From a virus: 47,629 nucleotides of DNA. Location of the stretch: positions 1 through 47,629 of IMG/VR virus record IMGVR_UViG_3300013113_000799. One strand, 5' to 3'. The notes beneath the pieces are model-generated. The model was not told where the DNA came from and made no database searches. It worked only from the letters and a program-made list of their open reading frames with translations. Positions 4,551-43,200 of this stretch are shown one piece after another. A program made the position numbers and the translations under genes. Within the stretch, counting starts at the first letter, position 1, and the number at the start of each line of letters is the position of its first letter.

Positions 4551-5186
4551 TCAGCCAATGCCGGTGTTGGCTCCAAAGGTGAACAGGTCTGTAGTATAAC
4601 CATTCTCGATAGTCCGTTCGAAAGGCGGCACAAGGCTAGGAACAGGGTTCGTTGAAGTGGCACCATCGGGCAGTGAAGCGATCACGAGAATTTCAATAAT
4701 CTCATCCGTTGAGGGAGTGGTAGGAGCGGCAGGACATGCCGCGGGGGGAAGCGTAGCAAAAGTCGTGTTCACTACTTGAATCCAAATGCGGTTGGCGGCT
4801 GTGGCAAAAGCTACCGCACCACCGGGGTCCGAGCCCGTTTCACCAAGCTGAACGTAAGCACTTGTACCGATAGGGTTGGCAATCGTGCCGCCTGCACCCT
4901 CGTGACCAGGAGCAGACCATAAAATTCTTACGGCTAGATTTTGAGGTGCCGTACCAGTAACGCTCTGAACTGAAATCTGAACGCTTGCAGCAGTAGATGG
5001 GAAGACTACCTCTGTTAGTTCACCCCCATAGTTAATTCCATTGAGAGTAGTACAGGCATTAAAGTCTGCGGCTCCTGCTTGAGCTAAGGTAAGTGTATTA
5101 AGATAAGGAATACCAGGAATAAGGTGCCTGGTACCTTGTGTGAAAATTGGGATACTTGTTGAAGTGATTCCTACGCCTGCTGCCAT
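4551..5186 (-). CDS. Putative tail-fibre/virion surface protein
   Basis: I do not recognise a family. The 211-residue product is rich in Ala, Gly, Thr and Pro, with alternating beta-type segments (VQISVQSVTG, LAVRILWSAPG, RIWIQVVNTTF), as expected for a secreted or virion-exposed beta-sandwich. The C-terminal FERTIENGYTTDLFTFG segment could be an interaction tail. It sits in the middle of the fibre cassette with its own Shine-Dalgarno (AGGAG) and is the first gene after a terminator and a candidate promoter, so it may be transcribed separately. A role in adsorption is inferred from position only. Confidence 0.5.
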   Translation of the reverse strand: MAAGVGITSTSIPIFTQGTRHLIPGIPYLNTLTLAQAGAADFNACTTLNGINYGGELTEVVFPSTAASVQISVQSVTGTAPQNLAVRILWSAPGHEGAGGTIANPIGTSAYVQLGETGSDPGGAVAFATAANRIWIQVVNTTFATLPPAACPAAPTTPSTDEIIEILVIASLPDGATSTNPVPSLVPPFERTIENGYTTDLFTFGANTGIG

Positions 5187-5222
5187 TTTAAATTTCTCCT
5201 AGAGATTTTTTGCTAGTATTAA

Positions 5223-5251
5223 ATAGTAATTGCTTTTCTTAAAGGGGTCAA
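5223..5251 (-). promoter_or_regulatory. Candidate sigma70-type promoter for the downstream fibre genes
   Basis: On the minus strand a TTGACC -35 box (5246-5251, 5/6 to consensus) and a TACTAT -10 box (5223-5228, 4/6) are separated by exactly 17 bp. The pair falls directly after the terminator at 5259-5285 and about 37 bases upstream of the start of the 4551-5186 gene, which makes a promoter plausible. Confidence 0.45.
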
Positions 5252-5258
5252 GTGTTAT

Positions 5259-5285
5259 AAAAAAAACGTAAGACCAAAACCTACG
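5259..5285 (-). terminator. Rho-independent terminator after the small 5281-5547 gene
   Basis: On the minus strand CGTAGG and CTTACG form a 6-bp stem with one G-T pair and a 7-base loop, followed by eight consecutive T residues (5259-5266). The hairpin overlaps the TAG stop of the upstream gene. The stem is short but the U-tract is excellent. Confidence 0.7.
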
Positions 5286-5547
5286 ATGGGGACGATGAGG
5301 CTGTAAAGAAGCCTAGCTCTTCCATTTCTGCCGGGGTAATTACAGTGCCCGTGAATTCAATATCCTCAGAGATGTGGGCGATCACAGTATTGTTTTCAGG
5401 ATGCATCACTGGCTCCACATATTTCGTAGTGTATGCCCCTTCGACTGGTACGCCATTCTGAGTCAGTTGATACGGAATGCCTTTTTCTGTTTTGATCTGC
5501 TCGTGCCACTCATTAAAGGCTTCGATATTTTCGAACAACGCAATCAT
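5281..5547 (-). CDS. Small protein of the fibre cassette, possible fibre chaperone
   Basis: This 88-residue protein begins MIALFENIEAFNEWHEQIK. ATG 5545-5547 is preferred over a GTG at 5559. It forms an ATGA overlap with the stop of the lectin-like gene and has GGAG seven bases ahead. No membrane segment or signal peptide is visible. It contains a mixed alpha/beta core with YQLTQNGVPVEGAYTTKYVEP. A small soluble protein translationally coupled to a fibre/lectin gene is often an assembly chaperone, but I do not recognise the family and the role is a guess. Confidence 0.6.
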   Translation of the reverse strand: MIALFENIEAFNEWHEQIKTEKGIPYQLTQNGVPVEGAYTTKYVEPVMHPENNTVIAHISEDIEFTGTVITPAEMEELGFFTASSSPS

Positions 5548-6440
5548 GGGGTACTCCACTTAGTCTTAAGATAGTTCTCGATCAAGGCGCGGTCAGGGGC
5601 GGAAACTTCATTGTCATAAATAATTACTTCTCCAACTTTACCCCACCAGCCACCAGCAGCACCGGAGCCGTTCCAACCCATTCCAAGAAACACCTCGTCC
5701 GACCATCCTGTTCCACCCCCAGGGTTGTCATATCCTCGGCGCGAGCTTACTGTACCTACAAGCCCCTGATTCATCCAATAACTCATTGGATTAACGAGCC
5801 CTGCGCCCGAGCCTGGATCTGTAAAACTCATGGTTGATTGGAATGTTTGACCTGCTGTGTTGCCAGCCAGTTCGACGTACTTATCAGCCGATCCTGCATC
5901 ATACATATACGCCCTCATCCAAAAAGGATTACCTACTACCCAACCATCGCTGTGAAAGCCCCAATAGCCAGACGCAGACACAATGCCAGGGTTGTTGTAG
6001 GTCGCAGCGAATCCGGCAGAGGTGTTGGGAATTCCAAACTCTCCAACCAAAAATAAACTAAATGAAAACGAGCTACCCAAATTAGATTTGAGAGAGATAT
6101 TGCTCCCTCCGGTGATCGCATCCATAATTGTAAGATATTGGACAGGGAGAGACCCGGCTACCTGTGTGAATTCGCACGCCTGGAGTCCTCCGATGCCGGA
6201 ACCCCCAGTGACAAGAGCAGGTTCGCGGGTTGCCGTGCCGTTTGTTGTCCACCAAGCAGCAGAAGTCACTTTGTCGCGAATTGCTGCAATATCCGCAGCG
6301 GTCGCGCCGGTAGTGATGTTTCCAGCAGCGGTGTCGCTGAAATCAAACCAGCGAACGCATCCAGTGATCGTTGTCGGATCAAAAGGGGCGGAAGAGCTAG
6401 AAGCAAAGTTTGTAACAGGTATGGGAAAAGGAGGAGACAT
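5544..6440 (-). CDS. LamG/concanavalin-like virion lectin protein
   Basis: This 298-residue protein probably displays a glycan-binding jelly-roll domain on the tail. The sequence fits a LamG/ConA-type fold. It has an N-terminal CVRWFDFSDT strand, then FSFSLFLVGEFG, and ends with the typical closing signature GEVIIYDNEVSAPDRALIE before YLKTKW. No catalytic hydrolase motif is visible. The start overlaps the stop of the upstream fibre gene (TAATG) and the stop overlaps the next start (ATGA), so all three are translated together. Binding to capsule or lipopolysaccharide sugars is inferred. Confidence 0.7.
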   Translation of the reverse strand: MSPPFPIPVTNFASSSSAPFDPTTITGCVRWFDFSDTAAGNITTGATAADIAAIRDKVTSAAWWTTNGTATREPALVTGGSGIGGLQACEFTQVAGSLPVQYLTIMDAITGGSNISLKSNLGSSFSFSLFLVGEFGIPNTSAGFAATYNNPGIVSASGYWGFHSDGWVVGNPFWMRAYMYDAGSADKYVELAGNTAGQTFQSTMSFTDPGSGAGLVNPMSYWMNQGLVGTVSSRRGYDNPGGGTGWSDEVFLGMGWNGSGAAGGWWGKVGEVIIYDNEVSAPDRALIENYLKTKWSTP

Positions 6441-16133: not shown

Positions 16134-19100
16134 CTATTGTTTTACATATGCGTACTTGCCCTTTTTCTCGATCGAGATCTGAGTATCAACACAGTCTTTA
16201 AGGGTGTCAAGGTGTGAAATTAGCAAGACTGTCTTATAATAAGACTTTACAAGATCTAGAATCCTGATAAAACCTTCCATGTTTTCCTCGTCCAAAGCAG
16301 AGCCCGGTTCGTCAAGAATAAAAATATTACCTTTCGGCATAGAAGAAACATTAAGTAGTGCCATTCGAATTCCCATAGAGGCAATAGTCTTCTCTGCGCC
16401 CGAGCCCATCTCTAGAGGACGAGCTTCATACTTGGGGTGTTTGATGTGTATGTTCAGGTTTTTATCATCACACTCCATAAGAACCTCAAAATCAACAACA
16501 TTTGCCAAAACTTTTGCAATCTCTTCATTGATGACGGGAAGACTCTTACGCACAATGTCTAGTGCGATCCCGTTACTGTGCATACACCTCATATAAAGAT
16601 CGTATGCAGAATATTCAAACCGAAGCTTATTCAATTCTGCTTCTTGCCCCTTTATAGTTTCTATGTTTTGTTCAACTCCTCCGATAGCCCGGTTCAGCCC
16701 CATCACCTCTTCACTGCAAGTTACGAGGCGCGATTCACACTGGGCTTTCTCTTGAGCAAGATTCTTCTGCTGTGTAAGAAGCTTTTCTAAGTTCTCAATC
16801 GATTCCTTGTTATCGTCATATTCCTTAATGCGAGCTTGTAGTTCCTTGACCTCCACTTCTCTTATAAGAAGAGTGCGGCGGGCTGTCTCAGCAGCAAGAT
16901 GCTCTGCATTCTTAGATGTTTTGATGGTTGCCAGCTTTTCTACAACCTGTTGATATTTGGATAAAAAGCTCTCAACCTGTTCGGGATTAAGATGCATAAT
17001 TTCCTTTGATGTCTCTTTCTCTTCAGCAAGTATCCCCTGGAGTGCGGTGCTAACTGTTTTATATTCTTTCTTGGAGGCGTGAGCATCTTTAATAAACTGA
17101 CAATGAGAATATTCCGCTCCGCAAGGAACTTCATCCAGAAGAGATAATTTCTTCTTGTGCTGTTGAGACATGCTCTCGTGTAACGCAAGCTCGCTATGAA
17201 TACGATTCAGTTCATCCTTTTTTGCCTTGATGATGTTCTGTGTGTTTTTCAACCCCTCCAAGTCAAAGTCACTAATGAACTTCTCAAATTTGTCAATCTC
17301 TTCCCCGTACTTCTTTACTTTCTTGTCACTATCACGAATTTTGGTCCGTGTTTGAGTTGTCTGTTTCTTCGCAACACTTAGCTTTTCTTTCTCTGCGTCG
17401 TAATCAATAATTTCTACCGGAATAGAATCAATCTTAGCTTGTATTTCCTCAAGGGATTTGTGGGCAGATTCAATCTTATTCTGCAAAACACTGCATTCTT
17501 GCTTCTGGTTATCCAAAACCTGGATGCTGTCCTGTAGTTTGTTTGTCTCTTCGGTTAATTCAGAGTGGAAATCTCTTCCTTCAAACTTCTTAATCAATGC
17601 CTTATGATCAGAACTGTCTTCCTTGGCAAGCTTGAATTTCTTATCGAAAACCTCAAGATCCAAAAACTTAGCTAAAATTTCTTTTCTCTTCGTTGAGCCC
17701 TCGCCAATAAATGAAAGGGAATCAAGCTGAGAAGACATGGATGTCAAAAGAAAGTCTTCGAGCGTGCCAAAGAACTTTCGTATGTTCTTATCAGTATGAT
17801 TTCGTGTCATCCCGTTCAGTGAAAGATTATCCTCCGTGACGGGATCAACAATGTTGAAGTCAAGGTTGGTTTTTGCCTCAATGGTCTCATCGCCCTTTAG
17901 CTTTTTTACATACTTGTCTGATCGTCGACTAATTGTCAGCTCTTTGCCATCAGCCTCTAGAACCACTTCAGCTTCACAATAGTCTTTATTTTGATTGATG
18001 ACGTTTAAGGTTTTGCGATTATTCTTAGAAGTGGAGTTGAAGATTCCCCACAAAAGGCTATCAATGATACTGGATTTTCCAGAGAAATTTTTACCAAAAA
18101 TCCCAACTACTCCAGAAAGATTATTGAAGTCTATGGTATTCCCCTCTCCATAATTGAAAAGGTTATCCCATTTAAGTGATTTAAGGTTCCACTTGATGTT
18201 TCGCTTGACCAATTCTTCTTCTTCTACGAGCGTAGAATAATGCTTGTTTAGTTCTAACACCTTCTTGAGAGTGTCCTCATCTGGTTCATAGTCCTTTATA
18301 TATTCTTTTATGAGTCGCGCCTGGACAGCTAGGTCTCGAAGGTCTTCGTTGTTGAGTTTACCAACTACGTCTGGACCGCTTCTTGAACCACAAGCCCTAT
18401 TAAGAAAGGTGATTGATTCAGGAGAGAATCGACGCTTCGCTACATCAACTGCTTTCTTTAGGCTGTTGATCGTAAGATTATTGTTGGTAACAATGCGAAT
18501 GCGAGCCCCTATAGGGACCTTAGTGCCTTTGGGTATTCTGCCCTTAGGAGTAAGCTCAATTGTGACGAAAGGCTTGGGGTTTTCTATGCTCACATGCTCG
18601 CAAGTGAAGCCCTCCTTCCCGTTGATATCCCATAGGAGAAAACCTTTGTCATTGCTCTCTCCGTGGTTCTGCTGAACGGTGGAGCCGGGATATCGAACGC
18701 GACCTTCGGGGTCGAGACTCTGATTGGTTTTGTGAATGTCTCCTAAGAAAGCAAAATCATGATGTTCGAAGATATCAATATCGTGATCACCGTGGTCCAT
18801 AACATACCCGGTGTCAGTCACTACTCCGCGAACTGAGCCGTGGTAGAGGGCGATATTAACACGAGAGGGGTCGGATGGTTTGACCCATTCATCCTCATCG
18901 AAGACCGACAAAACATTTAAAGAATAAGTGTCATCAAGATGAACCTCTCCCGCCACCTTGAGTAGATGAAGGTTAGGCAAATTCAAAGCATCGACAATCG
19001 GTGTCAGTGCATCTTGCCGACTGCGGTTCTTCAAATTGCCATCATGGTTCCCAAGGATAATATAAGTGGGAGCAATAGATGATAGCTCACGAAAAAAATC

Positions 19101-19283
19101 AGAAGCCATCTGAACAAACTCTGGCGATATTTGTGTTTTTGTGTGGGCGATATCACCACAATGGATGATATAATCTACCTTTTCTTCGCGTAGACGCTCG
19201 TACATTTTCTTAAAAACTTCACGATATTCATAATGATACTTGAGGTTTCTAATATGGGTATCTGCAATATGTGCAAATTTCAT
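16134..19283 (-). CDS. gp47-gp46: Fused Mre11-Rad50 (SbcD-SbcC / T4 gp47-gp46) recombination nuclease
   Basis: This 1049-residue protein combines two subunits that are normally separate. Residues 1-330 are an Mre11/SbcD metallophosphatase, with DTH (8-10), CGDIAH (42-47), LGNHDG (77-82), YHGS (147-150) and LGDIH (180-184). From about 365 a Rad50/SbcC ATPase follows, with Walker A GIFGKNFSGKSS (394-405), long coiled coils, the signature region MGSGAEKTIASMG near 959, Walker B IFILDEPGSALDE near 988, and the H-loop LLISHLD. The hook position near residue 720 has CGAEYSHC (C-x6-C), not CXXC. In T4, gp46/47 resects DNA ends for recombination-dependent replication. The start has AGGAGG seven bases ahead. 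There are no frameshift signs, so the fusion is genuine. Confidence 0.95.
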   Translation of the reverse strand: MKFAHIADTHIRNLKYHYEYREVFKKMYERLREEKVDYIIHCGDIAHTKTQISPEFVQMASDFFRELSSIAPTYIILGNHDGNLKNRSRQDALTPIVDALNLPNLHLLKVAGEVHLDDTYSLNVLSVFDEDEWVKPSDPSRVNIALYHGSVRGVVTDTGYVMDHGDHDIDIFEHHDFAFLGDIHKTNQSLDPEGRVRYPGSTVQQNHGESNDKGFLLWDINGKEGFTCEHVSIENPKPFVTIELTPKGRIPKGTKVPIGARIRIVTNNNLTINSLKKAVDVAKRRFSPESITFLNRACGSRSGPDVVGKLNNEDLRDLAVQARLIKEYIKDYEPDEDTLKKVLELNKHYSTLVEEEELVKRNIKWNLKSLKWDNLFNYGEGNTIDFNNLSGVVGIFGKNFSGKSSIIDSLLWGIFNSTSKNNRKTLNVINQNKDYCEAEVVLEADGKELTISRRSDKYVKKLKGDETIEAKTNLDFNIVDPVTEDNLSLNGMTRNHTDKNIRKFFGTLEDFLLTSMSSQLDSLSFIGEGSTKRKEILAKFLDLEVFDKKFKLAKEDSSDHKALIKKFEGRDFHSELTEETNKLQDSIQVLDNQKQECSVLQNKIESAHKSLEEIQAKIDSIPVEIIDYDAEKEKLSVAKKQTTQTRTKIRDSDKKVKKYGEEIDKFEKFISDFDLEGLKNTQNIIKAKKDELNRIHSELALHESMSQQHKKKLSLLDEVPCGAEYSHCQFIKDAHASKKEYKTVSTALQGILAEEKETSKEIMHLNPEQVESFLSKYQQVVEKLATIKTSKNAEHLAAETARRTLLIREVEVKELQARIKEYDDNKESIENLEKLLTQQKNLAQEKAQCESRLVTCSEEVMGLNRAIGGVEQNIETIKGQEAELNKLRFEYSAYDLYMRCMHSNGIALDIVRKSLPVINEEIAKVLANVVDFEVLMECDDKNLNIHIKHPKYEARPLEMGSGAEKTIASMGIRMALLNVSSMPKGNIFILDEPGSALDEENMEGFIRILDLVKSYYKTVLLISHLDTLKDCVDTQISIEKKGKYAYVKQ

Positions 19284-19291
19284 GCTGCCTC

Positions 19292-20245
19292 CTAAATTGA
19301 TGCAATCGCTGCACTAAGATTTTCTGAAAACCTTATCAGCTTTGCGTCACTTTTTCTTTTCTCAAACTCTTGCTTTGTCATTTCCCCAACATCTGCATAA
19401 GGAGAAATATCTATTTTATAAGCTTTGACTCCGTACTTAGAAAGGTTACTAATAAGCCGAGAAGCCTTTTTCTCTGCGTCGGAATCAAGTGCCAAATAAA
19501 CAGAAACACGACTCTTCACCAGGCGAGAAAATAATTTAGAACCCTCTTGTAATGTGGTCCCAAGAATTGGAATTGCGTTTCCAGCTTTGATCGCATCAAA
19601 CGCCCCCTCAACTATGACCACATCATCACTCCAGTCTATGTATAATTCATTGAAAATGATGTTCTTGCTCACTGGAGGGTTCATGTATTTCTGGTAGTGT
19701 CCATTGTAACTGCGTGCCACAAAATAGTTAACGGCACCGGAATCATTAAAAGAAGGGATGATTATACGCCCACCATATTCCCCCCGAGGGCAGTGACCGA
19801 TTTTCCACCGGACTATATCACTTTGATTGATCCCGCGCCTCTGTAGAAACCCGAGGGGTACTCTCTCTGTAAGCGAGCCAGTTGGATTTACTAAGGATAC
19901 GAATTCTTTTGGTAGGTTGATCTCCTGTGCAAGAGAGGAGGGGGTTTGACTTGAAGCGGGCTGAAGACTGAACAGGATCTCTTCGAAACTAACTAATTCC
20001 GGTCCCTCTTTAGAAAAAGACTCCCAAGCTTTCAAGTCGGGGAAACGTCCTGTTTGCCGCACCAACTGTTTGATTGAATTGCCGCGATAATCACAAATCC
20101 AACACTTGAACTTATCCTTGTGTAGATTAATTGATAGTTTCTTTTTATGGTGATCACACTTTGGACAAAAGAAAAGGTGCTCATCACCGGATCGGTGAAA
20201 CGAGCCAAGAAATGATTTAAGGATTTCTAGTTTCTGTTTTTCCAT
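19292..20245 (-). CDS. DnaG-type primase with zinc finger and TOPRIM domain
   Basis: This 317-residue protein probably synthesises RNA primers for replication. ATG 20243-20245 is chosen; a TTG at 20275 would lengthen it and the overlap with the upstream gene. A zinc-binding domain appears as CPKC (27-30) and CWIC (48-51), of the CHC2 class with all-cysteine ligands. A central RNA-polymerase-like region includes YGGRIIIPSFNDSGAVN and ARSYNGHYQKYMNPP. The TOPRIM domain follows, with catalytic Glu in VVIVEGAFDA (Glu213) and the DxD motif in LALDSDAEK (Asp254/256). It is shorter than DnaG and lacks an obvious helicase-interaction domain or fused helicase. It sits between a RuvC-like nuclease and the recombination nuclease fusion. 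Confidence 0.9.
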   Translation of the reverse strand: MEKQKLEILKSFLGSFHRSGDEHLFFCPKCDHHKKKLSINLHKDKFKCWICDYRGNSIKQLVRQTGRFPDLKAWESFSKEGPELVSFEEILFSLQPASSQTPSSLAQEINLPKEFVSLVNPTGSLTERVPLGFLQRRGINQSDIVRWKIGHCPRGEYGGRIIIPSFNDSGAVNYFVARSYNGHYQKYMNPPVSKNIIFNELYIDWSDDVVIVEGAFDAIKAGNAIPILGTTLQEGSKLFSRLVKSRVSVYLALDSDAEKKASRLISNLSKYGVKAYKIDISPYADVGEMTKQEFEKRKSDAKLIRFSENLSAAIASI

Positions 20246-20765
20246 CAACGCTCTGTAAAAAGCCCGCCGTAGCAATCACCCAGCTATCTGCGCGATCATA
20301 GGACCCTGCGACGGGATTTCCATGTTTTGTATAGTCTACACTAAAAGAGGGTACGTTGTCAAGTAAAAAGTGCAATACTTTTTCTTTAGAGTTTTCTCCT
20401 CGCTGTATGTGTATCCCGCAAGCCTTTCGGGCGGAAGAGGCGCTCAAAAATTCAGGAACAGTTTCGTATATCTGAACGCACGACCAGGATACCATACCAT
20501 TAAACTTAGCCAATGTTAAGAGAGTTTTGGCTGAGGAGAAACCGGGGCGGAATCGAGATAGAGATTGTTCGACATAAACCCTATCAATCCCGAACCTGTC
20601 GTCTAATTCCCACAGCTTGTCTTTAACAAACTGGGCTTTAGAAAACAGATGAGGGAACTTTTTTTTGTTTCGTGTGTCCCACGCTTCACAATATACCGCT
20701 TTGCCAGAGCTGTCTAAAACGGTTGCGCCTGTGATCGATGTGGAAATATCCAATCCTAGAATCAT
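20217..20765 (-). CDS. RuvC-like Holliday-junction resolvase
   Basis: This 182-residue RNase H-fold nuclease probably cleaves branched DNA made during recombination and before packaging. ATG 20763-20765 forms a TGATG overlap with the preceding structural gene. A TTG one codon upstream is less likely. Acidic catalytic positions fit the RuvC pattern: LGLDISTSITG (Asp6), RVYVEQSL (Glu66), and YDRADSWVIA (Asp157 and Asp160). The sequence SSAKTLLTLAKFNGMV is the usual helix after the second motif. Length matches RuvC. T4 uses the unrelated gp49 endonuclease VII for this job, so this may be its functional replacement. That replacement is inference. Confidence 0.85.
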   Translation of the reverse strand: MILGLDISTSITGATVLDSSGKAVYCEAWDTRNKKKFPHLFSKAQFVKDKLWELDDRFGIDRVYVEQSLSRFRPGFSSAKTLLTLAKFNGMVSWSCVQIYETVPEFLSASSARKACGIHIQRGENSKEKVLHFLLDNVPSFSVDYTKHGNPVAGSYDRADSWVIATAGFLQSVDGKTETRNP

Positions 20766-21946
20766 CAAATATCCATTTTTATTTTAAAAGTAAACTCACG
20801 CTGTTCCGTCTTGCGAACTGGATTTGCTAAATTAGCGATAGCAATAAGGTTGTTATCCTCATCATAGATACCTATTTTAGTGATGTAGGTTTCTTTGGCA
20901 AAGCTACCAGTAGGATCGGGATACGGTGTCTTTACAATATTTTTTATAGGCGTAGTTTCATTTTCCACATATTCCGAACCAGCACTTACTACCGGGTTTC
21001 CGGTATAACTAAGGTCTAAATAAGTGGGGTTATTGGAGTGGTTCAACTCGCCCTTCGGAGCGTGTGCTAGCATAGTAACAGTGGGCAGATAATTTGTCCC
21101 GTTATAACTCAAAGACCAGCTTGAGGAAAGGGGAACAGTAGGGCAAGCTAGATAATGTCCCCAGTAATTCCACTGAGGGTTTACTGGTACGCCGCAAGTA
21201 ACATATTCTTCTGTGTGAGCATCAATTGCCCAACTGCCCGTAAGGGCAATTATACCTTCATTGTAAAGCACAACACCAGCTACATCCCCTGCGTGTGGAC
21301 CCGCCGGTAGCACTTGTCGCAACTCTCCATTTTTTTGTGTATCCTGTAATTGCCCCACTAGAGAACCTGTCACATAAAAGCGTAAATCAACGGTACCCTT
21401 CTCAATTGAGCTGCCATAAAAGATAGATGGAATGCTAACTAAATTAATCTCTTGTTCTCCTTTGTCGCCCAAAGAAGAAGAAAAGGCATAGTGGTCGCTG
21501 AGTGTTTTGTAGTAATTAAAGGTATTCTTCAAAGCAAAAATATGACGACGGTTTGCCAGCCCAGAAAGAGCTGCTTGATAGTCTTGAGTAATCGACGCAG
21601 ACATGGGATAGCTGCCAGTCATTATTGTGCCATACGGAATAGTATTGAACTCTTCCGTGGAAATTGTTTTAAAAGCCGTGAGAGAGCCCTGTTTTGTCAC
21701 AAAAGGATAGATAAGATCTCCTGCGGGATCTCGATCTACGTTCATTTCATATAGAGATAAAAATCCCGAGGGCACCATATCAACATTGGTAGCAGGCGCA
21801 TGAGTGTTAGTAAGAGGCAACACTTTATCATACGCGGTCACCACACTCGTAGAAGTTTGGTTATAATACCGCAAAAAGTGAAACGTCGGATGTGTCTCCA
21901 GCCGATTTGTGAAAATGTCGTTTGGACCGAACTCGTAAAGAGGCAC
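20765..21946 (-). CDS. Virion structural protein, paralogue of the 21964-23124 product
   Basis: This 393-residue protein starts at GTG 21944-21946 with GGAGG ahead. No known enzyme motif is present. It is beta-rich and Tyr/Thr/Ser-rich, as in tail or baseplate proteins. Blocks shared with the next gene upstream are IEKGTVDLRFYV (IKKGTFQIIVDT there), VVLYNEGIIALTG (LIFYQAGVIALTK), and the C-terminal ITKIGIYDEDNNLIAIANL (ITTVGLYSADNELLAVAKL), ending in a similar strand. The pair therefore arose by duplication. Its place at the end of the structural block suggests a tail or baseplate component. The exact role is unknown. Confidence 0.75.
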   Translation of the reverse strand: MPLYEFGPNDIFTNRLETHPTFHFLRYYNQTSTSVVTAYDKVLPLTNTHAPATNVDMVPSGFLSLYEMNVDRDPAGDLIYPFVTKQGSLTAFKTISTEEFNTIPYGTIMTGSYPMSASITQDYQAALSGLANRRHIFALKNTFNYYKTLSDHYAFSSSLGDKGEQEINLVSIPSIFYGSSIEKGTVDLRFYVTGSLVGQLQDTQKNGELRQVLPAGPHAGDVAGVVLYNEGIIALTGSWAIDAHTEEYVTCGVPVNPQWNYWGHYLACPTVPLSSSWSLSYNGTNYLPTVTMLAHAPKGELNHSNNPTYLDLSYTGNPVVSAGSEYVENETTPIKNIVKTPYPDPTGSFAKETYITKIGIYDEDNNLIAIANLANPVRKTEQREFTFKIKMDI

Positions 21947-30154: not shown

Positions 30155-31212
30155 TAGCACTCATCTCCAGGGAGGGGGGGATCATCATCATAAACATCGC
30201 GAGAGATGGTGGTGCCACCTTCTTTACAGTGAAGCTCGTCGTTTACATAATATTCGTCTCGTGGGCGTAAGTTGTTTCGCAATTTACAAAGAAGATCTTC
30301 GCTAATTTCGCTATCCACTGATATCTTGAAAAAATAATCGACACACGTCATATCAATTTCAGCGGGAGGGATTTTTTCTATTTCACTTTCATCAAGTAAA
30401 ATGCCATTCTTTATCAACTCGGGGGAGCGAATGAAAGATAAGGGTTTGAGTTTTTCCACTTGGTGGCGCTCAGCGGTCGGAAGCCCAGGTGTGTCAATAT
30501 TGGCAATAGTCACTGTCTCTACCTCAAAAATTTCCATCTCAAAGTTTTCATTATAAAAGGGTGTGTTTTCTTCTTCAATCTGCAAAACAAGAGCACTGCC
30601 TGAAACACGAATTATCTGGTCTCCTATCAAAGAGTCTTGGGCGGTGGCGCAGGGAGAAGAGCTATGCTCATGGGCAGCTTCATCGACATCTGTGATGTGG
30701 GAATGTGCTGGTCGGTGGACGTCTGGATAAACATGCAAAAATGTTTCATACTGACTGTCGATCTGTAATTGGGGAATTTTTTGAGTAGGAAGAGAACCCG
30801 TCTCATGCTGCGCGAAGCCACTAAGCTCGCCCTGAAGGGCTTTAACGCGCCAGGAGGGGGCATAATTACTCGTCTGGGCAGAAGTCCCTAAAGCCATAGA
30901 AAGCGCATAGTGACGATCTGCGGTCTGCTGGACGTCGTACACTGCACCGTCAACGCTTTCATGAATCTCTGTCACGGCAACTTCACGACCGGAATATATT
31001 GCTTGGGTTTTGAGTGATGGAGTATCATCTAGAATTCTATCCTGGGCGTTGTTCTGGATCTCGACGAAACCACCGGCAGTGGAATCATAAAGGACCCCTT
31101 TATCAAAGAATGCATACTTGGCGGGCTTGAATTTGCCTTCGGCAAGCAGGCGCTTTCCATAGGGGGTAAGCTGGATGTCCAGTACTTCTTCTTCTTTGTT
31201 GAAAAAAGCCAT
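30154..31212 (-). CDS. Virion structural protein, shares N-terminal domain with 23145-24083
   Basis: This 352-residue acidic protein starts MAFFNKEEEVLDIQLTPYGK, then FKPAKYAFFDKGVLYDS, a motif layout repeated in the 23145-24083 protein. The middle contains histidine-rich PDVHRPAHSHITDVDEAAHE, which could bind metal but has no recognised enzyme context. The C-terminus is an acidic, proline-rich tail (YDDDPPLPGDEC). TAATG overlaps at both ends couple it to the giant gene upstream and the 1116-residue gene downstream. A small adaptor between large baseplate proteins is plausible but unproven. Confidence 0.7.
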   Translation of the reverse strand: MAFFNKEEEVLDIQLTPYGKRLLAEGKFKPAKYAFFDKGVLYDSTAGGFVEIQNNAQDRILDDTPSLKTQAIYSGREVAVTEIHESVDGAVYDVQQTADRHYALSMALGTSAQTSNYAPSWRVKALQGELSGFAQHETGSLPTQKIPQLQIDSQYETFLHVYPDVHRPAHSHITDVDEAAHEHSSSPCATAQDSLIGDQIIRVSGSALVLQIEEENTPFYNENFEMEIFEVETVTIANIDTPGLPTAERHQVEKLKPLSFIRSPELIKNGILLDESEIEKIPPAEIDMTCVDYFFKISVDSEISEDLLCKLRNNLRPRDEYYVNDELHCKEGGTTISRDVYDDDPPLPGDEC

Positions 31213-34200
31213 TATTCGTTTGCTCCATCTGCACCAAATTCACTACCAGTCACTCCAGGCTTTGTTTGTCCGGCTTCAAGCTCACTCTTGATCTTAGCTG
31301 TTATAGCGGTTGAGGAGCGCCCGATAGGTGAATTATATATTCTTTCTTTTTCTGCTTTAGGAAGTGGACCAAACACGCTTGTTACACCATCATATGTTTC
31401 GTCATCAAAAATTTCCACACCACCTTCAATTTGTGATAATTCGATAAGTGAGAAGAAGTCATAGGGCCAGTTATAACTATACTTAGAGCCATCTTCTCCT
31501 AGATTAAAGTTGAAGTCAAAACGACTATCGTTTACTGTTCTGCCATAAGATTCATAATAATTAGTCTTTGCCTTTTGTTTCACTCTGAAGACAAGCCATC
31601 GCACATCTTCTGGTGGGACGTCGCCGCCAAAGAAATCAACAGTGCTCAAGTCATGTATAAATTCCTGAGATTCACGCTCGGCGCGGGTGGCAATTGTAGG
31701 AGAGACGCCCTGCCAAATGTCACTCAGGTCTTGCTGGTCTAGTTTGTGGCTGAACTCTACAAGGTACATGACAAAAGGGCTGTCCCCATAATCAGCAAAA
31801 TTCAAAGTAGGGGGTAAATTATATTTACCCATCGTCTTGATCATTCGTGAAATCGAAGTCTCTTCAATGTTTTGGGTGGCTCCGAAGGACCCTGAGGTTA
31901 CGGCTGGTGAGCCTTTTTCAACATTGTTCTTCTGATGACGGTAAATGTCTTCATCAATAGCAAACACTTCCTTACCGTCCACCGTAAAAGTACGCGGTCC
32001 AGAGCTTTGTTTTTCGTCAAGGAAGGGCACAAGTACAATGGCTTCGGATATTGTTTTCTCCTCTGCAATTTTCCCCACCTTCTGTGTTGAGGGGGCAAAT
32101 TTACAAACATCAAGAAGAGAACCCGCATTATCGAGTTTAGCTAGTGTCTCTTGATCTCCTTGGGCGACTTTGAAAGAGTAGTCAATCTCCAAAAAGACTC
32201 CGTTATTCTTTTGGGGTATTTCTCCATATCCTGACCACATGCCAATACCTTCAGAGAAAGGTTCTTCGCTTAGGCGATTAAACTTCAGGTAGTCTTTATT
32301 TTTCTTATTATTGAAATTTAGAATCGGGCTCTCAAACTTGGTTGAAATAACCCAAGTGTCTACACTAGAAAGACCTGAATCTGTTGCGGATGAAGCCGCA
32401 AATGCTCCGGTATCAGCATCAGGGGAACCCAAAGTATAAGTGATATCTTTCACTTTCCCCTTAGAGGTGAGGTTGACCGAAGAGGCTAAAGGCATTCGAG
32501 CGCCATAGGCAGGTGACTGTTCGCAACCGTCTACGTTGTCAGTAGAAGCGCGACTTAAAGATGCAGTCCCCATCCGTTGAGTCCGCACTACTTCATTGAA
32601 ATATTTGCGAACTTCTTCAGATTCTTCTTCAATGTGTAATCCAGCGAAAATTTCATCTAGCGTATATTTGCGACTTTCTGTAGCGGTGAAGGATAAACGA
32701 GCAGTTGTTTTCCCGTAGAAATAAGAAGGTGTGTACGGGGCTTGTGCCGGGTCTGCAATTAATTCACGCGGGTGGGTATATGCACCGGCATTTTTATATT
32801 TGAACGCGGGACCGAAATATTTTCCGTCAGCAAAGCCCACTGATCTGTCAAGGCGTCCTTGCGGGCTCATCATCGTGTTGAGTTCTTCTGTTTTGTATAA
32901 GCTGACATCCATGTAATATGTTTTACCTGCCTCCATCGCTTCAAATTGATCTTCGGTGGCTGATGTGAATGATGTTAACTTCTCCCCTTCTAAGAAAAAG
33001 GAAGGAATCTCGGCAAGGAAGTTATGAATGCCGCGACTATAAAGATTTTGGGTGGAGGCTCTCTTGTCATTGAAAGAGAAAGAGGGGTAGCGGCGATGCT
33101 CTGCAATTTGAGCGGCTGATCCCGTGTAATATTCAGGTGCCATCAAGAAGAATTGAGATGGCTTTTTATCAACCTTTAGGGCACTTGATTCTTCTATATT
33201 CTCAATACCCCCGTAAAGCCCCCTAGTCTGGCTTGGGACGCCGAGAGGGGAATCAATGGAGGTATCTAGTGTTCCGTCACTTTGGACCGTCTTAACGCCG
33301 ATTGTGGACAAAGAAGAGTATAATTTTATAGCACCTGTGCTGTCAGTAAAATATCCTGAAGTTCCTGCAAGTGAACTAAAGGTCTGCGCGATGGTAATTG
33401 TTGCTTTCGGGGTAAGACCACCGAGACCGCCTTGCAGTGCGCCACGGCGAAGTAAATTATACTTGGTGTTGGCTGATAGATCTCTTGGGTCTGCTTCCAC
33501 ATCGGATGCTGAGAATTCATCATAGGTCGATTGCGTCAAAGAGGGAGGACCAACATATACAAGTTTTATTCTAAAAGATCCGCTAGACTGTCTGCCGGTA
33601 ATGGGGGCATTGTGACCATCAAGGGTAGCTTGTGAAAATGCCTGAGTATAAGCTTCGGACGACTCTCCTAAACCTGAGCGTTCGATTCTGAAGGCACCGA
33701 GATTCAGATAGTCTATAATAAAGTCAGTTTGTGTTTTCTCTCGTGCGCCACCGCGACCACCGCCGCCTAAAGGAACGGGGGGACGAAGAGCAATCCACAA
33801 ACAGGAAGGATCATTATTGATCGCATCACATAATTCAATAGCCAAGTTTTTATTGATCATGGCAGTCGTCGTTTCCCAGGGACCGGAATAAAAAGGAGCT
33901 AAAATATTTGTATCGCCCACCTCATCGTCTACCCCGCGGGTGACTCCCCATCGGGCACGACGTAGTGAGATGGTAGAACTTCTCTCTTCAATAACTCCAT
34001 CTGCGCCAAAATAAGGGCTTCGCAAAGCAATATTATTCCCCTCACAATCATAGCCGTCAATATCCAAAACGATATTGCGTAGAGACAATTCTTGTGAGGC
34101 TTGTTCCTGCGCTGAAGAATTGTTGAGAAAAACACTATGAGGGGATAGTAATCCTTCGAAGGGAATTCGCAAGGAGGGTTCATCCAAAATTACAAAACCT

Positions 34201-37200
34201 GCATTAGTTCCCAAGGCTTCATTAGTAAATTTAGGTTGTGCCGTAAAGCAATTTTCCATCGGCGTCAATGCAGCAGGCGTATCGATGGTATTATCGCTGA
34301 AAGGTTCTGTCCGAGGCTGGTACCATTGGGGAGCTTCCGAACCATAATAGCGTTCCTCTCCTTCAGGCTCACCGTGGCGAGACAAATATAAGCGTGCGCC
34401 ATAATTAGGCGGTTCTAATCCCGTCTCGTTGCTAAAGGCTGGCCAGTCCACAGCAATACCTGATTTAATTGAGTTATACAAGATACCGGGAGCAAAGAAC
34501 GGCTGTACAAAAGACTGAAGGCGTTGAGAATCCCAAAAAGCATCAGGGTCGCTGTTACCTAGAGCAATATTATCAAAGTAGTCTTCTTTAAGAAGGTATC
34601 CAAGCTGCACAGAACGCTGGGATGGGTAAAATCCATTGTATGGAAGGAGCTTCTTTATCACGTTAGCTTGCAGACGCATCCTTTTGCGCCTCTGGGGGGT
34701 TCCATCGTCGTGATCCTTTATGACCTCTGCCATATACTTCACAATATCGGTGTGAGCGTGACGATCAAAGAAACTGTCGCTATAGGCTGAAGACGAGTCT
34801 GAAATGGACTCCACAAACGGAACACCAACGCGCCACCAAAGGGGTAATTCAGCTAACATGGGATTCGCTGCACTCAAAGGAATTGAATAGTTTGTCATCA
34901 CATATGCGGTAGGCGCAATTGTGGGCATCGTTGAACCATAATGAGCATTAAGATCAGCAATAAGAGAATACTGCGACATAAGAAGATAATTGTAAAAATC
35001 CTCAAGCAGATTAGTTGGGGCTCCTCCTCCAGTGCCATCTGTGTTCTTGCCATAGAGCAGCCCAATACTATTTTCGGTAAGAATCCCTTTCCAAAGGCTA
35101 AATTCCATCATCAATCCTTTGAAATAGTCCTTACGTTGAGTGATATCACTGGTAAGATGTCCTTTTCCTAATGTTATCGTATTGAGTTTGCATCCATCAT
35201 TTAGGCGAGCGCCAACCGTGCCCACCGCATACGGTGTTGGCGGTCCAGCATGTCCTGGCTCAACAACAGTGTAAGCAGAAGGGTCACCATTAGCAAGGGC
35301 TACTGGATGAGTGCCGTATAGTCTTTCTCCATCAAGCCACATCATGACGCGAGGCTGTTCATTTAGCCCTGCGCCTGTTGCTTGTTGAGGAATATACTGT
35401 AAGGTAATATGACTCATCCGATCACTGGGTAAGATTGCGGGAATAAAAGTACCTACACCCGTTTTTTTCATAAAGTGGAAAATATTATCTGTAGCAGTGG
35501 CGGTGGAGGGGTCTGCGATCTGCCCTGAAGCTCCCATATAGAAAGTCAAGCCTCCGACGCCTTCGTATTCTGTTGTGCTGAATAATCCAGCAGTCACAGT
35601 GGGGCACTTTAGCCAAATGCCCATTTCAGTAAAATCCGCTTCATGAAGAATTATGGAATCTGTTGAGGAACCAATATCAACGATCTCTACCCAATCTTCA
35701 CCCCGACCCGAAAGAGAGACGGAACCTATGTATGCACAGTTGTCCATCGCTTCTTTTTCAGGCTGAATCCAGAAAGATACAGTAAATGCGTCTCCATGAT
35801 CTCCGGCGATGGCGTTAGGGTTATAAAGCTCGATTGGTCCTAGATCTCCGAAGTTTTCAATTGCTCCTTCAATATAATCCCTCTCTTCACACCCTGAATT
35901 AAAACGCAAAGCAGAAGTCAGACAACCGTTATAAGGAGTCATCCTCACCCAGTCGGTAGTCGGAGCACGAAGCGGACTCGGGGCGGCGGATGTAGTGGCA
36001 ATTGGGTTTGAAAAAGCTTCAAGCGGGTTTTTATTATCGGCTGTCGTCTTTGAAAAGATTTTTCCAACCATAACAGAGTCACTAAGCTGAGCTGTGGAGC
36101 TTCCTGTTACATAAAGTTGGTTATAATCTTTGTATTTGAGATATCGGGAGTCTCTTTCATCATAAAACGCATTATTTCGAATGAGATCAAGCCCTGCGTC
36201 GTCACTAGAAGAGGTGGGATATCGAGTGCCCTGGTAGACGCCGTTTCCAGTGCGCGAAAAGACCTTAGTGATCGTCATGGTGGTGTCGCCACTAAGTTCT
36301 CTGCCGAGTTCTGCGCCCTCGATCGACAAATAATTGTAATTTTTGGCTCTAAAGTTGCCCGCTTTCTCTCTTACATAGAAATCCATGTGCTGAGACATTC
36401 TAAATTCGGGTACAACCCCATAATTTTGCCCCATAAGGCGTACATCCTGTGCATAATCTCCATAAGTGTCATACCATGGCGATTTTCCTGAGATTGTGGT
36501 CGTTCTCCATGACCAGCCGCGCTCGGGAGCCTCTGTGCCAATGGGATTATAAAGATATTGTAAAGATGGTCGCGGTTGGGCGTGGAGTCGGCGTGTGATA
36601 GAGGTGGTTCGAGGTGTATCAGTAGCAGATTCAGGCGACAACCCCGGTACATAAAGACCTGTCAAAATTGATTCGGCTGCTAGCGCAGCCCCTTCAAGGG
36701 CACTCACGCCTGATGGCACTGGAGCTAGTGAGAAAACTGATGGATTTGCCTCTAAAGAGCTTTCCATACAATCAATTGCTTCCGTGGGAAGAATATCCGG
36801 TGTGTATGCTAGCGGTACATAAGTTGAAAGAGCACTTCCTGTCAAATACCGCACCAACTCTGGCGCTGAACTCCACGCAGATGATGGTTCAGGGGTTGAA
36901 ACCACCTCCGCTGTCTGAACTCGTGAATAGCCGCTAGTCCATTCCTCGTATCGAGGGGCACCTACATACCCCAAGTCACCAAGAATTTGGTATTCTACCT
37001 CGATTCCGCCATCAGATGGACGTGGTAGGTATGCTAGAGAGGTAGGAAAGCCCATTTCACCGTCAACGGGGGCATATTTTGTATAGTCATCAAGTGCCCA
37101 TACGCTATCTAACTGCTTATGCTTATTATATTGATAAGTATTGAAGGCATATCCTAGCGCATTGTAGGAACCAACAAGACGTTTGCGGTCTTCAACGGAA

Positions 37201-40200
37201 TTTTTCCAGAAAGTGCGAATGTAAGCCTTTCCAATAATACCCACAGAAGCATATCCGGTGGGATTATTGCGAATTTTTTCGGCAGATTCGGAATAACCAT
37301 TCCGTTGACGCACGGTGTGCAGCCCAACATGGCGGTGTTTGGGATAAATATATTCCCCATAAGCAATAGATGTGAAGGCGGCATGAGCATTTTGTGGGAT
37401 TTCAGGCGCGTACATATCCAAAAGTCGGTCATAAACTTGTCGATCGCACTTGATCGCCTCCAGTCGATTGGTCAAGTGTGGGTTAGCAAACATTTCTAAA
37501 TTGTTACTATAAGTGTGAGCAACACCAATGCCCGTTGTATCGGCAGCATTTACCATAGTTGTCGTCATTGGTTGATTCCAAGCGCAAGGTGGCTCAATAT
37601 AGTTGGTGAAAGATTGAGCAAAACGCTCTGTTAGGGCAAACCTGCGACCCGATGCGGTCAAAATAATACGTCCTTGCGATGGTCGATCTTGAACAGAGAG
37701 GATATTCTTCTTTCTTAGGTTTCTTACATATTTTCTCTCACCTGTTCGAATCTGTTTCCAACTGGGATATTGATATGGACCATTGCGGTTTAGCAAAATG
37801 GTGTTGAGATCTGGATCTAAGATAGTGCTCGGAGCATCAAGGAAATATGGGCTCTGTGTATCGCAAACATTTGAACAGTATAGGCAATCATAACCAGTCA
37901 AACCAGTATCAAAGTCTGTAGGATCATAAATAAGGGTGTTTAGTCCTGCGAAGTCGATATCTTTCACTATAGCGCCAGTATAATTCAGACTACCGCTCAA
38001 TAACAAGCTAGTAGAAATATCTAAAGACACATTATCATAAGTTGAAGCAAAACCACTTAAGCGGGGATATGAGGTAAAGCCGGGGAGTGGGTACAAGTCT
38101 CCAAAATCAATGAGCCCGTTTGGTAATGCAGAGCCAGTGACCCAGGTATATTGCCAATCGCTGCGTGGGATTTGATGCTTGACAAAGAAGTTGTCATAAA
38201 TTGCCTTTTCAGCGTAGATCCCTGGGGTGGCTGGGTTGTCGTCTCCTGCAATATTCAAAATAATGCGACGCAAAGGGTTGCGGTTATTTTTTTGCCACGC
38301 ACCAACAACTGCCGTGCTCGTCGGATCGTGAATATAAGTGTCTCGATAACCAAACTGATCGGCATGGTCGGACAACCAAAAATCTAAATGTTGACGGACC
38401 ATCAAGTTACGATAATTGACAGTGCTATAAGGGCTCTTCTCAGCCGCTTCCATGTCCAGTGAGCCTGCACCTAAAGAGGCGACAGAACCGGGGGCAGAAA
38501 ACCGCTCCACAAAAACATAATCAGTAGGACCAAATTGAACCCCAGCGGCATCCAAGCTACGATCAGGGATAGCATAATCATAAAGCCCCGTCACATATGT
38601 TGAAGTAGTGGAAGTTGTAGTGATTGGCAGAACACCATTATTCTTAACATACCAGCGATTCTGAACTGAACGACCGGAAGTCTGAACAATCTCATAGTCC
38701 CAGGTGTAGTTACCGTAAGGTAATTCATTAGAGTCTGCATCTTCAGTAGCCCCAGCAACCGTTTTAATGTTGGCAATGTTCAAAGGACGCTTGGCAGTTT
38801 CGTTACGAGTATAACGTGCAGCATAAGCCGTTGTAGAGACGCTGTGAGGGTGTCGTAGGGTCGTGTAAGGACCCGCGGTGGTCTCGGTATATAATTCAGG
38901 GCGGTTCGTATCTTGTGCTGTGGTGGTTAGGGTAACGTGACGGTGCTGGTTACCACCTACCCACTGATTAGTAAAAGGTCCCTGCATGGGAATCTCATTG
39001 TCATCACCATATGAGTCACTGTGGATATTAGTCCTAATTTGATTAGTATAGTCATTAGGAGCGGTGCTATAATAGTTAAAGGGAAGTCCAAGGGCTCCCT
39101 TGAAGGTATTTTCATAACCGCCCACGGTAGCATCAGTAACCGCAACCGATCTTGCATTTTCAAATTTATCCCGAGGACCGGGGGGTGTGGCGCTAGTAAA
39201 AGCATCAATGCAAACAGGGTCGGCGCGATTACCAGTGCGATTGCCTGGCATTGCCGTGCTATCGTTGATCTCCAAGCCTTGAACAGCGGCGGTCACTAAT
39301 TTAGTAGTTGTTCTAATAAACTCATTGACCGGCTTTCTTCCGTGGTTGAAGTTATCGCCGCCATGAACAGTTTTGGATTCATTCACTCCAAACCGATAGG
39401 GGCGAGAAAGTTGTCGAACAGCATAAGTGCTACCCTCATAGCTGGCAGCAGTCACAGTGTCATAAAATGTCGGACCTTGCTCAACCCATGCAGCGCCGTC
39501 CCAAACGAGTTTAGTGTTTCCCTTGACCTCTCGAATTGCGGCTTTGCGTAAAGTCTCACGATCTGCATCGACAATGGGATTACCGGAACTGATAGCATAG
39601 GGCACGTTAGAGCGTTCTACACGCTGGAATCTCCATAAACAATCCTCATCGCCAAAGCCAGGACCAGAGGGCGGAAGTGTGGCGTGACCGTGCTCCCAAT
39701 CATATAGCATTTCCTTGATCCCAAATACTTGTCCCTCAATGGGAGCCTGTTTCATTTCAAGCGTGGGAAACTTTGAAAGATATTTATTTCTCTCTAAAAC
39801 ATGCGACTCGATAAGCGTTCGCATTTCTTCAGAGAAATTAGCGGAAGCCGGGAAGATCTGCTCTATCATAATATCTACCGAAGAATCAATCCACTTATAA
39901 AATTTAACATATTTCTCTAAAGTAGCGGTATCGCTTATCTGGCGCTCAAAAAAGATTTGACGAAGCTTGTCTAGTGGTTTGTTCTCTACTCGATAGCGCG
40001 TAACTGGATCGCCTAAGAGTTTGTTGAAGTGAGCGATGCCTGCGAACACATCAATAATTTCATCGGAGATGGCTTGATACATGCTCTTCTCAGCAGCAAA
40101 AAAGTACTTTATGGGTCGGGTGTCGCGGGTAAAGATTTCCTGGTCTGCTTGCGACAATATGTTGATCATATCGCTACTTGAAGCGACCTCAGGAACTTCC

Positions 40201-43200
40201 TGTTTTGCTGTAGAGATATAGTCGGTATCAACAACCTTGTTACTTGAAGCCGGGAAGAAACTTCCCTGACCAGAGTGCTGGTACGAAGTACGGAGAGAAA
40301 ACCAGTCGTAAGGACCTGCCGTTGCAGACGTAGCGGAACCGGAGGAATAGTCAGCGGTCACAAACAAGCCAGCCCCGTCGGAACCTGTAACATTGTCGAA
40401 GTTCCAATCCAACGCTAGTGTGCTGGCTTGAGGTACTTCAATATTCGGAGTGGGTCCATCTAAAGACGTCGGACCAAAGTATGCAGGGTCCTCGGGGCGG
40501 AGGCGACCACTATTAGAAACATCATAAGAGTGGTATTTGATGGTATCATCATCAAGGTAATCAAACCAAAAACGAACTGAGCTGATTTTGGCATCTGATT
40601 GCTGTAGAACCGCACCAGTGAAATCCGCCAAATGAGCACCGCAGTAAAGCCGCTTAGCAGCGCGGATCGCCGGAAGCGCATCTGCACTTGCCACTGTTGT
40701 AGAAAGGGAGAACTCGTTCTCTACGGTATCTTGAGTAGAATTTACTCCATAAAATTCCAAGTCATAAGAAACATCTGGGGTGGGTAAGCCAGGAGTAGTT
40801 TCTGTGCTGCCTAAAATTTCGTCAACTAGATACGTTTCTTTTTGTGATGGAGAGACGCGAAATCGAACAGCAAAATTCCACTTTTCATTATCATAGACAT
40901 TTTTATAAACCGGGGAGTCTAAGGTGATGGGAGCACCACCATAACCGCCAGCTAAAGACGTAAGCCGGAAAAATACATTATCCGAGTCAGCCGACTCTTT
41001 CATTGCATAGACCTGGAAATTACTGGCGTCACCGCCGAACCACGTCAAAGTAGCGGGAGCGGCTAAGTCGGCGGCGTGCATACCAAACAAAGAGCCACTA
41101 ATAAAAGTAGACTCGGCAATATACCGATCCTCTGCGGGAGGTTTCTTGGGGAAGATTGCTTCAGCCTCTACTGTGAATGAAAGATAATCCACTTTGTCAT
41201 CAGTAGCTACCGGGTCTGCACATAAGATAAAAGAGCGCGTGTCGGGGTCAGCCGCATTATGATACTGGTGAACCGTCGCTGACCACCTGTCTGGATTGTT
41301 GAAGTCCGCGTACTTCTTTTTGATAGCAGTATGTCTTACATTATGCCGAATTTTATGGTCAACGCCATCAGCATACATATTGATCTTTACCAGTTCGTCA
41401 TCTACACCAAAACAGCGAAGGAGATTTCTAAAAGATTTCTCGGTTCCTTTTGATTTATAAATATATGAAAGGTTATTATAAATGTTTTGATAAATTAGGT
41501 TCTTGACCAAACTAATTTTTTGGGCAAAAACTTCATCCTCGCCTCGGGATACCAGTTCTTCTAAAATAGTCGATTCGACAAAAAGCTCGGGAGCGATAAG
41601 ACCGGCTGATCGGAGAAGGTCTTTGGCAAAGGCATAAGGCTGATCACCCTCTTGGAAAGAAGCATAGTGGACATCCTTAATATGAGGAAGGGCTTCGATC
41701 TGCATATGCAAATTATCAAAATAGCTTGAGAGGGCTTGAATTAGATTTTTTAAAGTCTCCCCGCCGCGGTCTTCTTCTTCTTGAGTGATCCACGATGGGA
41801 TGGACTTATAAATCGAAGTGCCGTTTTTATAATCATAGATTCGACCTTCAGCAGTAAGTGTGTCTAGGAGTGTTACGACTTCAGGATGATCAGAATAAAT
41901 AATCGGATCTTTAAACTCGGTATTCTTGATAGCAGGTGTGAATTCATCAATGGCTGACCCCGTAGAACGAGCACCAAGACCGTAGTTTTCGATCAAGCCA
42001 TTAGAGATTCTACCTGAATAATCTAAAACATTTGCGTCGACGGCGTTGATGGCAACCGTGTCCATGATCCCTTCGTTGAATTTGTAATAAACGCCCAGAT
42101 CTGTATTAGAAACATCTGTATTTGTACCCCCATTGACTTGAGCGATCCAATCTCTTCCTATCTCTTGCGAGGTTCGGCGTGTCTTCCAAAACCGAAATTC
42201 GTCGAAATAAAGATTTTCATATGCACCATACCCAGCTCCCACACCAGCGCCAGCAATTGCCGCGGTGGGGGCTTCTAGGAAAGAACCTACAGCGCCCAAC
42301 ATTCCTGTTTGCGCCGCGGGGGCGGGGGTCCCGATTGCGCCTCCAGCGACAGTTGTTGTGGTGTCCAAGGTACCATCAACATAAATTCTAATTACAGAAT
42401 CCGCACCAGAATCAAGGATAGAAACGGCAAGGTGTTGCCAATTTGTTCCCATAATAGTCGCAGTAGGGACAATCGCCTGGCGCTCGTAACCGGCGGCACC
42501 ATTTTTATATGTTATGTAAAAACCACCAACCCGACTGTATTCGACAATAAAACGAACATAGTTAGGATCAGCAAAACCGAGCCCGTTCCAAGAGTCGAAT
42601 AGGCAGATATCAACGCCAGCCACCAGAGGAGCCAAATCATCTACCTTAGTAAACAATTCAACAGTGTTTCCTACACTTCCATCAACTAGTAGATTAGTCG
42701 ATCGATCGTTCGTTGGGTTATAAATGTTTGCATCGCCGCCCTTTTCAGGGAATTGGCGACTAAGTTCGGATGTAGAGCCAGCAGTTACCGAAGGGTCTCG
42801 ATGTGGACCACCTTTGAAAGTGACATACTGGGGTGATGCCATAAGAAGAAAATCATTAGGAAGTACAGTAATTGTAGATGAAACGGCGGTGGCTGTATTA
42901 AGTGTAATATAGCCCGTGGTGCGAGGATAGCTGTTATCTAAAATATACCGATCTAAAACCGAGGCTTCATTCGACCATTTGATCTTTTCAGTGGCGGAAC
43001 CGTCATAAGGATAAGTGGTGTAAATAGACTTGATAGAGTCTGAATAATATTTTTCAGCTAGTCCGTAGCGTGCAAAAGTAGCCGGATTCGATAAGTCTAC
43101 TCGTGGGATAAATTTCTCCCTCGAAATACTCTCTGAAACAACATAGGCATCCGACTCGACTTCTTCAAGGAGTTTGTCGACTTGCTGCTTTGTTAAAATC

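Follow-up and report, generated by a model that had tools for sequence, protein, structure and literature searches.

The 47,629-nucleotide stretch of viral DNA analyzed here (hereinafter, the window) encodes a single-chain Mre11-Rad50, that is, a fusion of the counterparts of the T4 proteins gp47 and gp46. Very probably, this chain is the only Mre11-Rad50 (MR) of the phage and forms a 2:2 assembly that resects and tethers DNA ends for recombination-dependent replication and repair. A Pfam search identified two domains in this protein, Metallophos (residues 1-184, E 4.9e-15) and AAA_23 (residues 370-611, E 2.8e-11), and in agreement with this, PHROGs profiles match it as SbcD-like at 1-354 (9.6e-37) and as SbcC-like at 329-1048 (4.7e-59). 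The earlier note had read the frame as a metallophosphatase and an ABC-type SMC ATPase joined in one polypeptide, and this holds: the 1049-aa ORF is uninterrupted and contains every quoted motif (IADTH, CGDIAH, LGNHDG, LGDIH, GKNFSGKSS, MGSGAEK and FILDEPGSALDEEN). All the Mre11/SbcD phosphodiesterase motifs are present save GHxH, which is GDIH, and the Rad50/SbcC part has Walker A, the signature, Walker B and two ATPase lobes split by an antiparallel coiled coil; both halves, as had been claimed, appear catalytically complete as far as can be judged from the sequence. The data directly support the domain content, the conservation and the genomic context of the fusion, as well as the finding that long relatives lack a separate pair.

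The dimer, docking in cis, the polarity of the nuclease and the role in replication are what we infer. The chain would run from a two-metal nuclease through a capping domain, a helix-loop-helix (HLH) and an 8-residue linker into a Rad50 ABC-ATPase with coiled-coil arms of ~150 residues and a hook with two cysteines. Dimerization of this chain via the heads (with ATP), nuclease domains and hook would give a 2:2 complex as in gp47/gp46 and SbcCD, with each HLH able to sit on the coiled-coil root of its own chain. Such a complex would open DNA ends to yield 3' single strands for the phage RecA/UvsX recombinase and would tether the ends during recombination-dependent replication and repair.

Features of the fused gene and its upstream neighbors in the window.
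Feature	Residues	Position	Strand	Evidence or remark
Single-chain Mre11-Rad50 (gp47-gp46 fusion)	1049 aa	16134..19283	-	Pfam and PHROGs matches in one ORF, ATG start
Mre11/SbcD metallophosphoesterase core	1-240	18564..19283	-	PF00149 1-184; AF2/Foldseek match to Mre11 chains
GDIH metal-site motif, Asp at the place of Mre11 His206 (P. furiosus numbering)	181-184	18732..18743	-	
Mre11 capping-like region	241-316	18336..18563	-	AF2 secondary structure; rough dN/dS < 0.12
Helix-loop-helix, presumed Rad50-binding element of Mre11	318-356	18216..18332	-	AF2 helices 318-332, 336-356
8-residue linker before first Rad50 strand (365-373)	357-364	18192..18215	-	AF2
Rad50 N-lobe	365-570	17574..18191	-	PF13476 370-611
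Walker A GKNFSGKSS	397-405	18069..18095	-	K398, G402, K403, S405 invariant (alignment A1)
Two antiparallel coiled-coil arms	571-880	16644..17573	-	AF2 long helices between 572 and 901
Zinc-hook cysteines, spacing CX6C	C721, C728	17100..17123	-	Outgroups CX2C
Rad50 C-lobe	881-1049	16137..16643	-	PDB profile match, Rad50 ATPases, best E 5.6e-16
ABC signature EMGSGAEKTIA	958-968	16380..16412	-	
Walker B/D-loop FILDEPGSALDEEN	988-1001	16281..16322	-	
Shine-Dalgarno AGGAGG, 5' of fusion ATG		19288..19293	-	Good ribosome-binding site
DNA primase, directly upstream of fusion		19292..20275	-	phrog_47 E 2.1e-41
RuvC-like Holliday junction resolvase candidate		20220..20768	-	Pfam RuvC E 0.021, below cut-off

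The genomic context of the fused gene is that of a T4-type tailed phage. Apart from the upstream genes, the window encodes a T4-type portal, a terminase large subunit, a prohead protease and a baseplate wedge protein. Of the 47 loci that have 2.5 kb or more of upstream sequence, a primase precedes the MR gene in 46 and a primase together with the RuvC-like gene in 44; in this candidate resolvase, D7, E67, D158 and D161 are invariant across 16 aligned sequences. The ten long marine relatives all encode the T4-type portal, and nine have a RecA-family (RecA/UvsX relative) gene; none was found in the tenth (G009, 141 kb), which is possibly a fragment. In these ten relatives (113-203 kb; some records are possibly incomplete), no second AAA_23 protein and no separate gp46/gp47 pair were found, nor was a second Metallophos protein in nine of the ten, the remaining one having a separate 233-aa metallophosphoesterase frame. 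Given the combination of primase, RuvC-like protein, RecA and T4-type portal, the fused protein would have a role in recombination and replication similar to that of gp47/gp46. According to their annotation, the T4 proteins are needed for recombination and for degradation of host DNA, and the latter function lends some credence to the alternative that the fusion serves mainly to destroy host DNA rather than in phage recombination; this is unlikely in view of the conserved position next to the primase and the RuvC-like resolvase and the co-occurrence of RecA, and the two roles are mutually compatible.

The metal site of the Mre11 half calls for a comparable evaluation. Aspartate occupies the His206 position, that is, GDIH replaces GHxH, in 81 of the 82 aligned proteins, the sole exception being a Listeria protein, and nuclease activity is therefore not guaranteed. 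This substitution could leave the nuclease weak or dead, in which case the protein would function mainly as an ATP-driven tether or an SMC-like clamp. We assign a low probability to such a loss of activity: every other metal ligand is invariant (D8, H10, D44, N79, H80, H148, D182 and H184 do not vary in 50 aligned proteins), Asp is able to bind metal, and the dN/dS of the Mre11 core, a rough value, is about 0.09 or less. Furthermore, the T5-like D12/D13 homologs (PR1, PG07), which unlike the window protein are encoded by two genes and have a CX2C hook, contain GDLH at the same position, so that the Asp is not specific to fusions. In the 484 kb phage LR756508.1 (locus L003, ~4672-5577), ~900 bases interrupt the fused MR gene just after GDIHK; the insert contains a 305-aa Cys-rich ORF, homing-endonuclease-like by eye, and might be an intron located at the active site of the nuclease. 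To look for an intron in LR756508, four comparison loci were searched against Rfam; no family matched.

Confidence in the AlphaFold2 model, built on a 50-row alignment, is modest (mean pLDDT 75, pTM 0.42), with scores below 50 over residues 394-403, where most of Walker A lies. Chains of the C. thermophilum MRN complex rank highest among the Foldseek matches to this model; next, along with SMC proteins, come Mre11-Rad50 chains from T. maritima and archaea and chains of E. coli SbcCD. Structures of Mre11, Rad50 and SbcCD are matched at the sequence level too. As in the R555-like fusions (see below), an HLH region and a short linker stand ahead of Rad50; by analogy with the known Mre11 HLH, this element is presumed to bind Rad50. 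Since the joint sits at the end of what in cellular Mre11 is the Rad50-binding HLH, the fused chain could assume the ordinary geometry, and docking of the HLH on the Rad50 of its own chain is plausible. That fusion alters the behavior of the complex, as the earlier note proposed, is a hypothesis; the canonical MR complex is already 2:2, so fixing a 1:1 ratio by fusion changes nothing by itself.

A fused frame could, in principle, still give rise to two proteins, through an internal start near residue 339 or proteolysis, and thus to an ordinary two-subunit MR. An in-frame ATG is indeed present at the position of residue 339 in 36 of the 80 relatives, and an SD-like 4-mer precedes nine of these (25% compared to 10% for all internal ATGs), but such a 4-mer is found before 68 of the 76 true starts, and position 339 falls within the second helix of the HLH. 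The window itself has no start at 339; its nearest in-frame candidates are GTG 342 and TTG 358, neither of them at a widely shared start position. At the joint, the 80 relatives have no conserved start codon preceded by a ribosome-binding site, and internal initiation of a second product was accordingly rejected; altogether, a two-product outcome is very unlikely, and we favor the single chain.

The single chain is conserved in a large family. A scan of IMG/VR yielded 304 candidate stretches encoding a relative, of which 80 loci were kept; the fusion is one full-length frame in all 80. Best-segment identity of the kept relatives is 51-60%, with the exception of the identical L005. The spacing from R316 to W365, which spans the HLH and the linker, is the same in all 80 aligned sequences, without a single indel. 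In 15 close pairs, pairwise dN/dS stays under 0.12 in each part of the protein, the joint included, although saturation of numerous dS values makes this a rough measure; selection on the two halves and on the joint is strongly purifying. An assembly artefact or a one-base error merging two genes, of which there probably are cases such as Listeria phage LMTA-57 that looks fused via a one-base length difference, has next to no probability as the source of the window fusion and is already refuted for the marine fused family by the intact frame in every one of the 80 contigs, most of them 51-60% identical, and the invariant length of the joint. The LMTA-57 protein (KJ591605.1, 59521-62550), annotated as a single 1009-aa exonuclease, was rejected as an independent fusion: the sister records, 97-100% identical, have two genes and are one base longer (3031 vs 3030 bases), so that a sequencing error is the most likely explanation.

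The hook spacing of the Rad50 half most merits a further look. E. coli SbcCD and cellular Mre11-Rad50 resemble the window protein in fold and motifs but consist of two subunits, have a CX2C hook and generally possess longer coiled coils. At the tip of the coiled coil, where Rad50/SbcC proteins have CX2C, the window has CX6C. The hook PCGxx[FY]xxCxF[IV] is present in 71 of the 80 marine members, with CX6C spacing (CX7C in one), whereas the remaining nine, Mel-JY01, LR756501, LR756508 and Vibrio phage 1.031.O have CX2C, as do all 13 unfused phage proteins checked. Mapped on the head-domain tree, the two forms require at least five switches. A single exchange of the coiled-coil tip was considered as the source of the scattered CX2C hooks; it is unsupported because the CX2C sequences stay apart in trees built from the coiled-coil flanks and from the tip (6 hook changes vs 5). 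The CX6C hook might be a differently built metal or disulfide hook that alters dimer opening and DNA tethering, a tentative proposal that we rate somewhat below even; the variant could serve to test how hook geometry governs tethering. In Yoshida, Claverie, Ogata 2011 (PMC3175470), as read here, a changed hook spacing goes unmentioned.

The earlier note presented separate subunits as the rule, which is fair for T4 and most cells; the fusion itself, however, is not novel, the class having been published in 2011. Yoshida, Claverie and Ogata described Mimivirus R555 as a Mre11-Rad50 fusion, along with twelve further fusions, one of these in Bacillus phage 0305phi8-36 and others in plasmids, bacteria and eukaryotes (PMC3175470). 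They also found that R555 homologs are abundant in marine viral metagenomes and have phage-like primase neighbors, and suggested, from such neighbors and from small size fractions, that some of these are phage genes (PMC3175470). A search of the open literature, with subscription journals outside its scope, gave no on-topic paper on the fusion beyond that of 2011. The window is a further member of this class, with a clearer genomic context. Like R555 and the R555-like marine fusions, it has Mre11 followed by Rad50 within one frame; the linker, estimated at 9-12 residues in R555-like fusions, is modeled as 8 residues here, and the primase genes reported on R555-like metagenomic scaffolds have their counterpart in the primase adjoining the fusion. 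In R555, His206 is replaced by Asp and the third Asp of GDxxD by His (PMC3175470), and, compared by that description, GDIH and CGDIAH of the window show the same two replacements. The differences are in size and host virus: R555 is a 1351-aa protein of a giant virus of amoebae and the window protein a 1049-aa protein of a T4-type tailed phage. The clear phage context surrounding the fusion supports the 2011 suspicion of phage origin and addresses a point left open then, by placing an R555-type gene next to the terminase and T4-type portal genes of long contigs from tailed phages. T4 gp47/gp46 and their cyanophage and pelagiphage homologs share with the window the domains, the T4-type phage and the recombination context but are encoded by two genes rather than as a single chain and have GHxH, a CPTC hook and a shorter gp46 (560 aa). 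A common group of ocean phages thus encodes the Mre11 nuclease and the Rad50 ATPase as one protein, which offers a compact single-gene Mre11-Rad50 for biochemistry.

A tree of the Mre11 core and Rad50 heads was built for 31 phage sequences, 19 fused and 12 unfused, with cellular and giant-virus fusions left out. One branch (97/95) separates the 19 fused from the 12 unfused proteins, and the marine fused group, Mel-JY01, LR756508 and LR756501 unite as one group (100/98); the position of Vibrio phage 1.031.O is unsure because several long branches meet, this one above all. For this sample, the grouping fits a single fusion event. Across life, fusions do not form one group (PMC3175470).

Two named carriers of the fusion have recorded hosts. 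Microcystis phage Mel-JY01 encodes a full-length fusion (WWT39521.1, 1066 aa, 31% identical over 99%) and, like the window phage, has a primase upstream, RecA and a T4-type portal; unlike the window protein, this one has a CX2C hook and is annotated merely as an AAA-domain protein. The product of Vibrio phage 1.031.O (locus L097, 3959-7123; NVP1031O_031) carries no annotation beyond that of a coil-containing protein, but its single 1054-aa chain matches both Metallophos and AAA_23/SMC_N in Pfam; a phage with Vibrio lentus as the recorded host thus carries a fused MR. Membership in the phage lineage with multi-subunit RNA polymerases was rejected, PF00562 having no match in 11 records, and so was a host assignment from GTDB matches: L087 is a 7.8 kb contig and L086 (24260) has the same length as the IMG/VR locus L031. 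Elsewhere in the window (31212-43238, minus strand), a 4008-aa ORF without a PHROGs match lies amid further large unassigned proteins, close to a baseplate wedge protein. In L088 (CP070664.1), another of these GTDB matches, a piece of the fused phage group sits between N gaps in a chromosome scaffold of a WOR-3 MAG, which suggests that viral DNA was scaffolded into this MAG.
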